DNA from: Mariprofundus sp. NF
GTDB taxonomy: Bacteria; Pseudomonadota; Zetaproteobacteria; Mariprofundales; Mariprofundaceae
Length of the DNA stretch: 64,000 bases
Assembly (NCBI RefSeq): GCF_013387455.1
Contig: NZ_VWNC01000004.1
Coordinates: 1 to 64,000 of the forward strand
Direction of reading: 5' to 3'
Shown here: positions 39,425-44,737 of the stretch, piece by piece
Position numbering within the stretch: the first letter of the stretch is position 1
How the letters are laid out: each line of letters opens with the position of its first letter
Position numbers and translations under genes: made by a program
The notes under the pieces: model-generated
The model's input: only the letters and a program-made list of their open reading frames with translations
Databases searched by the model: none
Told to the model about the DNA's origin: nothing

Positions 39425-40654
39425 CTATTCGTGATGCGCCATCTGGTGAGATGCGCCGAACTGGATCCGGAGGCCGTAGACCCAGACGTTGCCGAAAACA
39501 TCTGCAGGGGCTGCAGCTGAAAGATTGTTGGCATTGTGGTGATACTGGATATCCGGGCTGATGGCGATCTCATCGGTGATCTGCCAGCGATAGTAGATCT
39601 CGGCGACTGTGCTGTTGGCACCGCTGTTTGGCGCCAGTGAGGTTTTATAATCATTGAGCAGACCGGAGTGGGCGACTCCAGCACCGAAAGCGTGCTGCTC
39701 ATTGATGCTGTATTCAGTGGAGAGTGAGGCGAAGCTGTTCACGCCGCCGGTGATATCGGTTTTACCATTGTTGAAACCGACACGTGCAGACCACGCGAGA
39801 TCACCCACTACGCCATCAATATTCGCATAACCACCAAGCGTAGATCTATCATTGCCTGCGCCATCATAGCGGGTCGCTTCCGTTGAGCTGTGCCAGCCAC
39901 CCATGGTTAGCAGAGCACCATCCTGCGAGAGCGGCAGACGCAGCTCAACCAGAGAGAAGAGCCCTTTTCGTTCGCCGGTTGGCGTGTTGCCAAACTTGAA
40001 TAGCTGACTGTAGTTGCCGCGCGGATTATCACCCAGGCCATAGGCATTGGCGGTCAGGGCTGTGAGCTGGATGCCCGCTTCTTCACCATAGTTGAATACG
40101 ATAGCAGGGGTGTAGTCGGGAAAAGCGATGGTCGGGTTATTCACCAGCGCGTCCGCCAGAAACTGCGACCCCTCATCATTAGCTGTAGCCGTAGCATCGG
40201 CAAAAGCGCTTAGATCCATCACACCGATGTTGGTGTTCAGTGCGCCAATATCGAAACCAAATGAGATTTCTGATAACTGCACCCTGCCCTTGCCTGCCGG
40301 TGTGGCGGCTGTGCCTGCATCGGCATTGGCACCGCCAACAAGGCTGGATGCCGAGATATCAGCCGTGGATGCGCCTTCGCCGTAGAGATGCAGGGTGCCG
40401 AAACCAAGGTCGGCATCGATCACCAGATCAAGACTGCCTATGATGTCTTTGTTGATATCGCCATTGTGCTTGCTGATCTGCTGACCCACGATGGTGGAAC
40501 CCAGTTCGATGCTGATGCCATCGTCTCCAAATATTTCACCTGCGCTAACTGCATGGCTGCCAACCAGCATGGTTGCAGCAAGCGCCAACATGGGGAGAAG
40601 CCGCTGCATTCGGGAGGTGGCAGCGCCATGCAGTCTGATATCACCACGTTTCAT
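39425..40654 (-). CDS. Outer-membrane beta-barrel (OprB-like porin), candidate zinc-regulated
   Basis: About 409 residues. Signal peptide (MLALAATMLVGSHAVSA) followed by alternating beta-strand pattern and an aromatic-containing last strand ending VYGLRIQFGASHQMAHHE, with a His-rich tip. The sequence looks like a carbohydrate-porin (OprB)-type barrel, but identity is not certain. ATG 40654 is only six bases after a -10 box and no ribosome binding site exists, so it may be read from a leaderless mRNA; ATG 40609 is an alternative start at the signal peptide. Its promoter is nearly identical to that of the zinc operon. Confidence 0.65.
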   Translation of the reverse strand: MKRGDIRLHGAATSRMQRLLPMLALAATMLVGSHAVSAGEIFGDDGISIELGSTIVGQQISKHNGDINKDIIGSLDLVIDADLGFGTLHLYGEGASTADISASSLVGGANADAGTAATPAGKGRVQLSEISFGFDIGALNTNIGVMDLSAFADATATANDEGSQFLADALVNNPTIAFPDYTPAIVFNYGEEAGIQLTALTANAYGLGDNPRGNYSQLFKFGNTPTGERKGLFSLVELRLPLSQDGALLTMGGWHSSTEATRYDGAGNDRSTLGGYANIDGVVGDLAWSARVGFNNGKTDITGGVNSFASLSTEYSINEQHAFGAGVAHSGLLNDYKTSLAPNSGANSTVAEIYYRWQITDEIAISPDIQYHHNANNLSAAAPADVFGNVWVYGLRIQFGASHQMAHHE

Positions 40655-40660
40655 GGCGCA

Positions 40661-40689
40661 ATCATTGGAACATTTCACGCTGTTTGCAA
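40661..40689 (-). promoter_or_regulatory. Promoter of the OprB-like gene, copy of the zinc-operon promoter
   Basis: Minus strand: TTGCAA (40684-40689), 17-base spacer, AATGAT (40661-40666), six bases, ATG 40654. The 38 bases from 40655 match 44030-44067 at 34 positions (ungapped over most of the block). The spacer contains GTGAAATGTT, like half of a Zur box. Confidence 0.55.
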
Positions 40690-40706
40690 ATCCAAGCCTC
40701 AGATTG

Positions 40707-40739
40707 ATTCAGAAGACGATCTCCACCCTTCTTCTGAAT
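40707..40739. repeat. 10-bp inverted repeat downstream of znuB
   Basis: ATTCAGAAGA (40707-40716) and TCTTCTGAAT (40730-40739), perfect 10-bp arms with a 13-base loop, between the znuB stop and the porin promoter. There is no T-run, so it is not a clear terminator. Confidence 0.5.
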
Positions 40740-40775
40740 GCCCTCCTAAATCAGCAAGCAGACCAGGTTCAGGAT

Positions 40776-41510
40776 CTAATCTGCTCTGTTAATAGCAGTT
40801 GAGGTGCCACGCCAAAGCAGAGCTGTCGCGGCAAGGAAGACAACAACGGCCGATGAGGGAGGGTAATCAAACTGGTTGGAGAAGAAGAGGCCACACACAC
40901 TTGCAACGAGCGAAATCGCCACCGCCTGTAGTGCAGACCCATTCATGCCATTTCGCCAGACCGCCAGCCCCGGCATCACCAACATGGCAAAGACCAGAAT
41001 CACTCCTACCGCATAGATAGCAGGCACAACCGCAACTGCCAGTGCACCATAAAAAGCTACACGCCCACCATAGCTATCTTTTCTACCCAGCTTTGAAAGC
41101 AACAGCGCTGCAACGCCTGCTATAGCAATAATGACCAGTTCAACCTCGGTTACTCCAAGTACGCTACCAAAGAGCAGCTCCATCATCTGCCCTTCGGCAT
41201 GAGGCATCATCGCTAGAACCATCATACCGAGTGAGGCGGCCAGAGCATACAGTGCGCCCATAACCGCCTCTTTCGGCAGATCACTCTCTTCAGATAACGT
41301 TGCAATAAGCAGAACTGTTACTGCAGTAACTACGCCTGCAAACAGCATTCCGTTAGCATCCATAGCCACGCCTAAGGCATAACCGACAGCCGCCACTTGT
41401 GCTAAAGCCAGATCGATAAAGATCACCCGACGATGCAAAATCTTTTGGCCCAATAAAGGCAGAAACAGAGAGACCAACAAGCAGGCGGCAAGGCTAAACC
41501 AGAGTATCAT
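40776..41510 (-). CDS. znuB: Metal ABC transporter permease, ZnuB type
   Basis: 244 residues, about eight hydrophobic segments of the ABC-3 family (FIDLALAQVAAVGYALGVA; AVVPAIYAVGVILVFAMLVMPG split by membrane helices). Forms the inner-membrane channel for zinc or manganese with the binding protein encoded just upstream. No ATPase gene is found in this operon or window. The stop lies 122 bases before the OprB-like gene start. Confidence 0.88.
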   Translation of the reverse strand: MILWFSLAACLLVSLFLPLLGQKILHRRVIFIDLALAQVAAVGYALGVAMDANGMLFAGVVTAVTVLLIATLSEESDLPKEAVMGALYALAASLGMMVLAMMPHAEGQMMELLFGSVLGVTEVELVIIAIAGVAALLLSKLGRKDSYGGRVAFYGALAVAVVPAIYAVGVILVFAMLVMPGLAVWRNGMNGSALQAVAISLVASVCGLFFSNQFDYPPSSAVVVFLAATALLWRGTSTAINRAD

Positions 41511-41513
41511 GCT

Positions 41514-42401
41514 TTAATCTCCTGCAGCCTTCTGAAGTAGCATCTCTATAAACTGGATATAGCCCTCTGAACCTTTTACCTCATGAGCATCTGGCATAGA
41601 GAGAAGTGATGCACCCGAAAGTTGAGCCACTCGCTTTGCCACACGTCCATGATGATATGGCTCAACCCATAGCTGCTTCACCCCTTTTGCCTTCACTATG
41701 CTCACCAGCGAATCAAGATGCGCAGGTGATGGTTCCACTCCAGGTTTGGGCTCGATGAAACCGACAACCGGAATAGCAAAGCGCTCACTAAAATAACGGT
41801 AGGATTCGTGATAGCTAACCACAGGCAAAGCGTTACTGAATCGTGGCTTCCAAACAGCCGTCATATCATGCAGACGAAAGGCAAAAACTGCAGCTCGTTG
41901 CCTGTAACTATCGGCATTCTCTGGATCAATCATCGCAAAACGATCAGCCAGAGCAATCGCAACCTGAGACCCACGAATTGGATCAAGCCACCAATGCGGA
42001 TTGCCTTCAGGATGCACATCGCCCATTGAGCGATCAACACCAGCCTTAGCACCGAGCACTTCAATAACTGATGCCCCCTCGAAATAGCCTGAAGTTTCAG
42101 GACGGATAGCCTGGTTACGCGCCACTTCTATCAGTGGCGGTAACCAACCCATCTCCAGACCGAGACCCGCAGAGAAGAGTAGATCGGCACGAGCAAGGTG
42201 ACGTGCAAGTGTCGGTTTAGGCGGCACGAAGTGTGGATCCTGCCCCACTCTGGCCAAGACGCGAACCTCGCCATCCTCACCTGCCACGGCGGCAGCGATC
42301 TGCCCCAGTGCCGGCAGTGTGGCGACAATATGCAGCTCTGCATGGCTGATTGCAGGAAACAGGAGACAGAGCGTAAGGATTGATCGTTTTATAAATGTCA
42401 T
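41514..42401 (-). CDS. znuA: Periplasmic zinc-binding protein, ZnuA type
   Basis: 295 residues, signal peptide ending ISHA near residue 21. Cluster A-I metal receptor: His ligands are visible in GQDPHFVPPKP, NPHWWLDP and SYHESYRYF, with a final EPYHHGRVA. The His-rich loop seen in many ZnuA proteins is short or absent. Delivers zinc (or a similar divalent ion) to the ZnuB channel, whose gene starts 3 bases downstream. Confidence 0.9.
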   Translation of the reverse strand: MTFIKRSILTLCLLFPAISHAELHIVATLPALGQIAAAVAGEDGEVRVLARVGQDPHFVPPKPTLARHLARADLLFSAGLGLEMGWLPPLIEVARNQAIRPETSGYFEGASVIEVLGAKAGVDRSMGDVHPEGNPHWWLDPIRGSQVAIALADRFAMIDPENADSYRQRAAVFAFRLHDMTAVWKPRFSNALPVVSYHESYRYFSERFAIPVVGFIEPKPGVEPSPAHLDSLVSIVKAKGVKQLWVEPYHHGRVAKRVAQLSGASLLSMPDAHEVKGSEGYIQFIEMLLQKAAGD

Positions 42402-42410
42402 CTGATCCTC

Positions 42411-43661
42411 CTAATAGGGATGAGCGCCGTGCGGGCCAATCGCTACAACCCAGCGCAAATACATCGCATTTGCATTGGCTCCGGCTGCAATGCCAAGATC
42501 ACCTGCCATCTCTGCAAGGGCTTTGCGGGTATGCTTATACTGCAGAGTAACGCTCTGGAATTCACTGAACTTCCACGCCAGGCCTGCAGAGATTGCGCTC
42601 TCTTTCAGCCAACCAGTTGTTGCTGGAACATACTCACGGGAGTAGTCAAAGCGTGAGAAAAGATGCCAGTTACGATTTAGCGCTGCTGTTGCCAACAGAT
42701 AACTACCATCGTTGATTGCTGTTGTGACACCGGTGCCCTGCTCTTGCCAGCGGCGAAGCCATTCGCCTTCCAGTGTGAATCCGGCATGTGCAAGGTTCTG
42801 GTGTTTGATGGCAAAGTGGCCACCGGCAATGCGTGTCATGGCATCTGTTGCTGCAATACCATTTTTACCCTGAACATAGTTAGCGCCCAATTCAAACGTT
42901 GCGTTATCACCGATATCCCAGAGGCCAGTCCAACGTGCCAGACCTGCATACTGACTGGTGCCAGTCGGATCGAATGCAACATCATTTTCAGTGGAGAAGA
43001 ATCCGGCCGTCAGCGTCTGTACCGAATCGCCTATAAACAGAGGTTTATCCAGCAGGAGACCATCGCCAATAAATATCTCTGGCCCGAAGAGATTAACCAG
43101 GCCATTGGGGCGATCAGCGTAGATCAGTGCATGCGGATGCATCTCGTTCACCCGTCCAACGGGCAGGAACTTGCGCCCTGCGCGCATATTCACACCCCAC
43201 GGCAGGTAGGCGGTAATAAAACCCTCTTCAACTGCCATGCCGCCATTGGCTCCGGTAACGGTAACATCAAGCCGGGCATGCGTATCGATATTGGCACCAA
43301 AGATAAATTCAGCTTCGGAGAGCGGCAGAAAGCTGCTGCTTCTCACCCCGCCATCGCCACGGATGCGCTGGCCGGTGAAATTTCCAATCACCGAAATGGA
43401 TGGATTGCCGCTATTCTCAGCCGTCGCGACACGAGCAGACTTGCGTACTTCACTTGAGGCAACAGAAGGTGCCGCCTCTTTTGACGTTGCTGCCTGAGGT
43501 GCAGCTGCAGGAGCCACCCTGTTTTTCGATTCCAGCTGTTCAATGCGATCCATGAGTTGCTGAACCTGATTTTTCAATACTTCCAGCTCACTGGCCGCAT
43601 ATGCGTTGCTGCTGACCAGAATGGCCGCAGCAAACACAGCACGTTTAAGTGCATGTTTCAT
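42411..43661 (-). CDS. Outer-membrane beta-barrel with N-terminal coiled coil, zinc operon
   Basis: 416 residues. Signal peptide (ILVSSNAYA), a coiled-coil stretch (LEVLKNQVQQLMDRIEQLESK), an Ala/Pro linker, then a barrel-like domain of alternating strands (FTGQRIRGDGGVR...; HLFSRFDYSREY) ending VAIGPHGAHPY. The arrangement resembles trimeric porins with a periplasmic coiled coil. Lies immediately upstream of znuA (9 bases), so it may admit zinc through the outer membrane. Family not assigned precisely. Confidence 0.7.
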   Translation of the reverse strand: MKHALKRAVFAAAILVSSNAYAASELEVLKNQVQQLMDRIEQLESKNRVAPAAAPQAATSKEAAPSVASSEVRKSARVATAENSGNPSISVIGNFTGQRIRGDGGVRSSSFLPLSEAEFIFGANIDTHARLDVTVTGANGGMAVEEGFITAYLPWGVNMRAGRKFLPVGRVNEMHPHALIYADRPNGLVNLFGPEIFIGDGLLLDKPLFIGDSVQTLTAGFFSTENDVAFDPTGTSQYAGLARWTGLWDIGDNATFELGANYVQGKNGIAATDAMTRIAGGHFAIKHQNLAHAGFTLEGEWLRRWQEQGTGVTTAINDGSYLLATAALNRNWHLFSRFDYSREYVPATTGWLKESAISAGLAWKFSEFQSVTLQYKHTRKALAEMAGDLGIAAGANANAMYLRWVVAIGPHGAHPY

Positions 43662-43711
43662 ATTAAGTCTCCTAATTCTGTTTTGATTACGTCACTAAGA
43701 CGAGAGAGGGA

Positions 43712-44029
43712 TTAGGAGTAAATAGGGGGTGCTCGGATAGGGGCGCTTGATCGTGTGGTCGCAACTGTAATCGACTGTTGAGAAACCACCGCTGCGACAT
43801 CGGAGAGATCTAATGATTTGGTCGGTACTGCTGAGATAGCTGCGCCGTGAGAAGTAACATTTTCAAGATCACAGCTGATACAGGCGCTATCGAGTACGTG
43901 CAGACCACTCTCATGGCTATGCAGGGAACCAACAGAGAAGAGGCATACCACAATAGCCAGCATGGAGAGCATCCACTGCATACGACGCATGGTGTTGACA
44001 CCCTTCAAGTTGACTTCACTCCATATCAT
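43712..44029 (-). CDS. Small secreted Cys-containing protein, DUF2946-like, head of zinc operon
   Basis: About 105 residues from ATG 44029, or 92 from ATG 43990. A signal-like segment (MLSMLAIVVCLFSVGSLHS) precedes HESGLHVLDSACISCDLEN and a C-terminus rich in Arg/Pro (SSAPIRAPPIYS). The small size, CxxC and tail resemble the protein at 17886 that heads the cus operon. Because the -10 box ends seven bases before ATG 44029 the message may be leaderless; AAGGG upstream of 43990 is a conventional alternative. Confidence 0.55.
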   Translation of the reverse strand: MIWSEVNLKGVNTMRRMQWMLSMLAIVVCLFSVGSLHSHESGLHVLDSACISCDLENVTSHGAAISAVPTKSLDLSDVAAVVSQQSITVATTRSSAPIRAPPIYS

Positions 44030-44036
44030 GGGCGCA

Positions 44037-44065
44037 ATCATCGAAACATTTCACTCTTTTTGCAA
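44037..44065 (-). promoter_or_regulatory. Promoter of the zinc operon inside the 3' end of lipB
   Basis: Minus strand: TTGCAA (44060-44065), 17-base spacer, GATGAT (44037-44042), seven bases, ATG 44029. The whole element lies in the last codons of lipB. GAAATGTTTC in the spacer could be part of a Zur-type operator. It is repeated at 40661-40689. Confidence 0.55.
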
Positions 44066-44646
44066 ATCATTGCTTCAACAGCCACTCGCTCAACCTCGAC
44101 TCCCAGCTGCCACATTGAGGTGACTGGGCTATCGCTCATGCCACAGGCAACAATGCCAGCGAAGTGTTTGAGGTTGGGATTAATGTTCAGTGCAATGCCG
44201 TGATAGGTAATCCATTTTCGGCAACGCACACCCACGGCCGCGATCTTTTCACCATCCACCCAGACACCGATGCCGCGCGCATCCCGATCCGCAGTGATGC
44301 CGAACTCGGCCAGTGTGCGAATCACCATCTCCTCCAGTCGCCAGACATGTTTGTGCAGATCCTGCTCTCCGCGCTGATCGGCAATGACATAACAGATAAG
44401 CTGGCCGGGGCCGTGATAGGTGACTTCGCCACCACGCCCGGTCGGGTAAACAGCAATGGTTTCACCATCAATCTGACGACTTAACACATCCGCTTCAGAG
44501 CCGGAGGAACCAATCGTATAGACAGGCGGATGCTCGGTAAGGATCAGCGACGGTTCCGATTCTCCGACCAGAATCGCGGCAACAAGCGCCTCCTGCTCGG
44601 CCAGCGAATCGGGATAAAGCTGTCTTTGATGGCGGATAATCTGCAT
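44038..44646 (-). CDS. lipB: Octanoyltransferase LipB
   Basis: 202 residues, transfers octanoate from acyl carrier protein to lipoyl domains. Signature GRGGEVTYHGPGQL, the catalytic Lys in GEKIAAVGVR and the catalytic Cys in GIVACGMSD are present. The start is ATG 44646 (an in-frame TTG six bases upstream is possible). Divergent from xseB. Its last codons double as the promoter of the following zinc operon. Confidence 0.95.
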   Translation of the reverse strand: MQIIRHQRQLYPDSLAEQEALVAAILVGESEPSLILTEHPPVYTIGSSGSEADVLSRQIDGETIAVYPTGRGGEVTYHGPGQLICYVIADQRGEQDLHKHVWRLEEMVIRTLAEFGITADRDARGIGVWVDGEKIAAVGVRCRKWITYHGIALNINPNLKHFAGIVACGMSDSPVTSMWQLGVEVERVAVEAMICKKSEMFR

Positions 44647-44737
44647 TTGCAAAGCCTAGCTGCGCTCCTGCACGTTGACCAAGCCTCAATGCCTTCTAGA
44701 ATCAGCAACTCCCTTCCGGGAAAAGGAGCGGCCAGTT

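Follow-up and report, generated by a model that had tools for sequence, protein, structure and literature searches.

How did the last codons of one gene come to stand directly before another, and what might they do there? In Mariprofundus sp. NF (G000; genome of 2.53 Mb) a short block at the end of lipB recurs upstream of an OprB-type porin gene, and an earlier note had read it as a zinc-locus promoter copied out of lipB to create a two-operon regulon. We investigated this locus in the first 64,000 nucleotides of contig 4, which we will henceforth refer to as the window. On balance, and with modest confidence, we favour the capture by the porin gene of the start region of a metal-uptake unit, with the block most likely acting as a leaderless promoter.

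Genomic setting

The closest relatives in the named collections were Mariprofundus sp. KV (G015; loci L077 and L095), M. micogutta ET2 (G020) and a Mariprofundus MAG. The genes run on the minus strand in the order lipB, orf109, porin2, znuA-like, znuB-like and the OprB-type porin gene, followed by a small ORF, an Rrf2 regulator gene and sufB (Table 1). The orf109-porin2-znuA-znuB cassette is present in several genera and is old. The lipB stop codon overlaps ATG 44041 of the orf109 frame (ATGA); the start of orf109 is more likely ATG 44029, because in G010 and G005 the frame carries a TAG immediately before the equivalent position. The top score of the znuA-like protein was to the zinc protein AztC, yet below the cut-off, and the metal carried by the transporter would thus putatively be zinc. 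No znuC ATPase gene was found among the ORFs read next to either znuA/znuB-like locus of G000 (window 40776-42401; contig C7, L076:4976-6729) or next to the cassettes of relatives (L079, L081, L082, L083).

Table 1. Features of the lipB-porin region, with positions in the window.
Feature	Position	Strand	Evidence
lipB, lipoyl(octanoyl) transferase, intact	44038..44652	-	TIGR00214, 155 bits (cut-off 83.55)
Copy A: last lipB codons and stop, then orf109 start and signal-peptide codons	43956..44068	-	local alignment score 69
Proposed promoter A: TTGCAA (44065-44060), N17, GATGAT (44042-44037), 7 bases to ATG 44029	44037..44065	-	exact pattern match; inferred
orf109, small exported protein with HxH/CxxC-containing segment, heading the znu cassette	43712..44041	-	
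porin2, gene of the znu cassette resembling outer-membrane porins, without family match	42411..43661	-	
znuA-like metal ABC transporter binding protein	41514..42401	-	PF01297, E 2.9e-45
znuB-like metal ABC transporter permease	40776..41510	-	PF00950
Copy B: lipB-tail fossil (40655-40692) and orf109-derived porin head (40584-40654)	40584..40692	-	
Proposed promoter B: TTGCAA (40689-40684), N17, AATGAT (40666-40661), 6 bases to ATG 40654	40661..40689	-	pattern and 36/38 conservation; inferred
OprB-type porin	39425..40654	-	PF04966, E 1.1e-12

Extent and copy number of the repeat

The two blocks agree at 34 of 38 bases (40655-40692 and 44031-44068, minus strand; four differences), exactly as first described, and form the longest direct-repeat family found by a repeat search (39/47). 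The copy at 44 kb reads ICKKSEMFR* in the lipB frame and that at 40.7 kb ICKQREMFQ*, also as reported, and the pattern TTGCAA-N17-[AG]ATGAT followed by 7 or 6 bases and ATG has no other mismatch-free match in the 64 kb; with up to two mismatches, TTGCAA-N17-[AG]ATGAT matched 22 times in the window against 16 expected. A 24-base core, searched with up to three mismatches, was found only twice in the whole genome (reversed control: 0). A repetitive element was therefore rejected, the genome holding two copies only, as was a widespread operator, there being no further site in 74 genomes. An Rfam search of the window for known RNA elements gave no match.

The repeat is longer than the block of the earlier note. 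In local alignment the similarity runs about 75 bases further, into both downstream genes, giving a total of about 110 bp from GATTTGC (44068; 40692), where the upstream edge is sharp, to CATGYTGGC (43956; 40584), with a score of 69 against a maximum of 36 among about 3000 random window pairs. The upstream half originates from the end of lipB, because the intact lipB holds one copy while the other is a non-coding fossil, in agreement with the original claim that the 3′ end of lipB is one of the two copies. Description of the 40.7 kb copy as non-coding applies upstream of the porin start at 40654; the rest of it is porin coding sequence. That start is the one best supported by the sister species. 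Copy B is one base shorter than copy A (GCGCCATG vs. GCGCCCATG), therefore the upstream ATG is out of frame and the porin would start at 40654, and a later start is unlikely because an internal ATG of G000 is AAG in G015.

An orf109-derived head on the porin gene

The downstream part of the repeat is the head of orf109, i.e., its ATG, a hydrophilic stretch and the beginning of the signal peptide. Taken alone, this part of the G000 copy was still similar (scores of 37-51 vs. a null mean of 16), and it also resembled the orf109 heads of G019 and G024, which lead a znu cassette elsewhere in the genome, away from lipB. The p-values for this downstream extension are upper limits, as the null reached 114 and some of its random pieces overlapped the query; in G015 the copy B signal beyond codon 6 is weak. 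From about residue 26 the porin resembles that of G020, whose N-terminus is different and has its own start. In both G000 and G015 the orf109 head is thus fused onto the porin. The idea of a bare promoter copy was not borne out, as the orf109 start and signal-peptide codons came along and are now porin gene; as read from the sequence, the arrangement is a captured start region plus a partial gene fusion. Separately, orf109 stands directly before an OprB-type porin gene in M. micogutta (L078:3918-4320) and in G089, from another genus (L127:5883-6234), so that orf109 and the porin became linked, or stayed linked, on more than one occasion.

Distribution and history of the two copies

The block was found in two of 74 family genomes, those of the iron oxidisers Mariprofundus sp. 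NF and Mariprofundus sp. KV, with two copies each in the same arrangement, and the capture model rests on these two. In a tree of lipB, ispA and xseB the two are sisters (support 0.99), joined next by G011 and G007. No such ZnuA was found in G011 or G007, where the znu cassette is missing altogether, and the porin-like gene that we read behind lipB in G011 is a different one; the cassette, porin and repeat therefore came to this locus, or arose there, in the ancestor of G000 and G015, unless lost elsewhere. Among the other 72 genomes, all lacking the block, we saw no relative with the cassette and porin at lipB.

Under the model that we favour, a segment of about 110 bp reaching from the last codons of lipB to about codon 25 of orf109 would have been doubled in that ancestor, and the second copy placed upstream of, and fused into, the OprB-type porin gene lying behind lipB-orf109-porin2-znuA-znuB. 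The two junctions at copy B (znuB spacer to lipB tail, and orf109 signal codons to porin signal codons) would fit a two-step origin, the probable route being that the stretch between the lipB tail and a point shortly beyond znuB was duplicated in tandem and a deletion then joined the signal-peptide codons of orf109 to those of the porin. The porin would thereby have gained the start region of a metal-uptake unit, namely a transcription start region within the end of lipB, a start codon that lacks a Shine-Dalgarno (SD) sequence, and a partial signal peptide. The fuller version of this account, in which a leaderless promoter evolved within the last codons of lipB and was copied together with start and signal codons, so that the two units share regulation and export signal, is possible, though we would put it somewhat short of probable.

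A different history, which we regard as rather unlikely but which fares best among the alternatives, makes copy B the older one: it would mark where the lipB tail first met orf109 in an ancestral locus of lipB, orf109 and porin like that of M. micogutta; the znu cassette, bringing a repeated lipB tail, would have entered this locus later, no promoter ever having been copied to the porin. M. micogutta indeed has lipB-orf109-OprB with nothing between, the direct orf109-OprB order recurs outside the genus in G089, and the closest relatives of our pair, G011 and G007, are without the znu cassette. M. micogutta, however, belongs to another clade than G000 and G015, and the nearer G011 has its different porin-like gene behind lipB. 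Moreover, the orf109-derived part of copy B matched the orf109 DNA of M. micogutta at chance level (p 0.13), and this part is closer to copy A and to the cassette orf109 of G019 and G024.

As for the DNA before copy B, a remnant of a whole second lipB was rejected, lipB coding sequence being unmatched there (p 0.82 and 0.44). The lipB-xseB spacer gave a 24-base match here, which was equalled in 0 of 1000 simple shuffles in G000 but was weak in the sister species (p 0.025). The stretch from znuB to copy B (40693-40775) contains a 10-bp perfect inverted repeat, ATTCAGAAGA...TCTTCTGAAT, which is not conserved in G015; a terminator hairpin was rejected here, the fold being strong in G000 and different in G015.

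Conservation of the non-coding copy

Between G000 and G015 the 38 bp before the porin ATG are identical at 36 positions (95%), compared with 58 of 87 (67%) in the adjoining upstream intergenic DNA (Fisher p 4e-4). Within the porin gene, identity was 17/18 over the first six codons, 48/63 over codons 7-26 and 49/85 (58%) at third positions. Copy B is probably functional because it is conserved between the two species beyond neutral expectation, and this points to a probable cis function of the fossil block; the constraint appears to reach from about -38 to +18, which corresponds to a promoter together with its start site. TTGCAA-N17-RATGAT is kept in all four copies, and copy A tolerates substitutions elsewhere in the block. 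In copy A the third positions of the last 11 lipB codons are all kept (8 of 196 ten-codon windows were equally clean), and constraint on the block cannot be told clearly apart from that on the coding sequence.

This conservation bears on the view that the block is a non-functional scar, with transcription reaching copy A by read-through from lipB, and copy B either from znuB or from another promoter. The weak promoter consensus would suit such a scar, as would the ATGA overlap of lipB and orf109, typical of a single operon (and lipB and copy A could simply share one transcript, a counterpoint to the capture model as well). Yet a non-coding sequence this much better preserved than both its upstream neighbour and the porin third positions makes a scar improbable. 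Slightly less probable still is a role in translation, i.e., coupling or a leader peptide, in which the lipB-frame stop, a mini-ORF ATGATTGCGCCATGA and the porin start form a chain of overlaps. Copy B of both species does hold ATGATTGCGCCATGA with its stop overlapping the porin ATG, and the missing SD would suit coupling; conservation, however, begins at GATTTGC, well ahead of any mini-ORF, and the sequence further upstream differs between the species, with gaps breaking any shared frame.

A candidate leaderless promoter

The likeliest function of the block is that of a leaderless promoter, TTGCAA-N17-RATGAT-N6/7-ATG, whose transcripts would have their 5′ ends on or beside the start codon. No Shine-Dalgarno sequence precedes 44029 or 40654. 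The hexamers match the sigma-70 consensus at 4/6 and 4/6 positions (8/12), under the threshold of the scanner, and RATGAT has the position of a -10-like box but misses the first T of TANNNT. A coding segment doubling as promoter, as first proposed, is hence plausible at the lipB end, but its consensus match is weak.

In bacteria, the described leaderless signal is a TANNNT box some 12 bp ahead of the start (PMC3160421). Like leaderless genes with a TANNNT box in Deinococcus and actinobacteria (PMC3160421, PMC12340547), both copies combine a box 6-7 bases before ATG with the lack of an SD; unlike them, the repeat has RATGAT instead of TANNNT, and one copy spans the lipB stop. Mariprofundus lipB itself fits the pattern of those genes: 17 of 22 orthologues have TANNNT exactly 6 bases ahead of the ATG, where the described signal also lies, and no SD 4-mer was found 3-10 bases before the lipB ATG in the genus. 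Literature searches on leaderless mRNA or Zur in Mariprofundus gave nothing relevant.

Three further observations concern the lipB start. The gene looks leaderless across Mariprofundus (window 44640-44710; lipB loci L005-L028), and the divergent lipB and xseB promoters seem to share TTGGTCAA as -35 region. The exceptions to the 17 of 22 include G015, G020, G019 and G016, in which the lipB ATG appears to overlap the stop of an upstream ORF (TGATG; L077 around 5321, L078 around 3307, L079 around 11271). This overlap suggests coupling of lipB to the upstream ORF, and the mode of lipB start seems to switch within the genus.

Comparison with promoter capture

In the E. coli Cit+ lineage of the long-term evolution experiment (LTEE) a duplication set the rnk promoter before citT, an event termed promoter capture (PMC4718724). 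Here, similarly, a duplicated start region of another gene stands upstream of a transporter gene: the source lies within another transcription unit (lipB tail and orf109 start), and the porin ATG 40654 follows immediately after the copied block, which, judging by the conservation of copy B, putatively drives porin transcription. Cit+ arose under selection in the laboratory, its phenotype is known and its expression was measured; by contrast, the lipB/porin case is old, natural and present in two species, and signal-peptide codons were captured too. The best-documented cases of promoter capture come from laboratory evolution, and a natural case with source and conserved captured copy side by side in two species allows a test of how a gene joins the regulation of another and how the end of a coding sequence can harbour a promoter. 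For Mariprofundus, whose lipB genes fit the pattern well, it is also a pointer to leaderless initiation.

Zinc and Zur

The znuA/znuB-like genes recall Zur-regulated znu operons; unlike those, the locus has no canonical Zur box, no clear Zur and no adjacent znuC. A GTTATANTATAAC-like Zur site (up to two mismatches) was not found in the window, nor an 8-bp dyad (up to one mismatch) in 360 bases around copy A or B of G000 or copy B of G015. The two Fur-family proteins of the genome matched Fur and PerR best, rather than Zur, and fell below curated cut-offs. The GTGAAATGTT half of the block resembles what we take to be half of the gammaproteobacterial Zur box; it consists of lipB codons and is missing upstream of orthologous orf109-znu cassettes away from lipB. 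Hence, even though one copy heads the znuA/znuB cassette and the 38-bp block is conserved with its spacer, a Zur operator defining a two-operon zinc regulon, as the earlier note had it, is very unlikely, and a zinc response of the porin was left without support.

The second znuA-like locus (contig C7) is preceded by a conserved region unlike the repeat block. Upstream of that second znuA-like gene, which is divergent from an ATPase gene, a AAATAACTAACTTATAAAAGTTAT-like block is conserved in several species (L076:3965-4976 and orthologues L050 and L068-L070) and is a candidate operator for a metal regulator.
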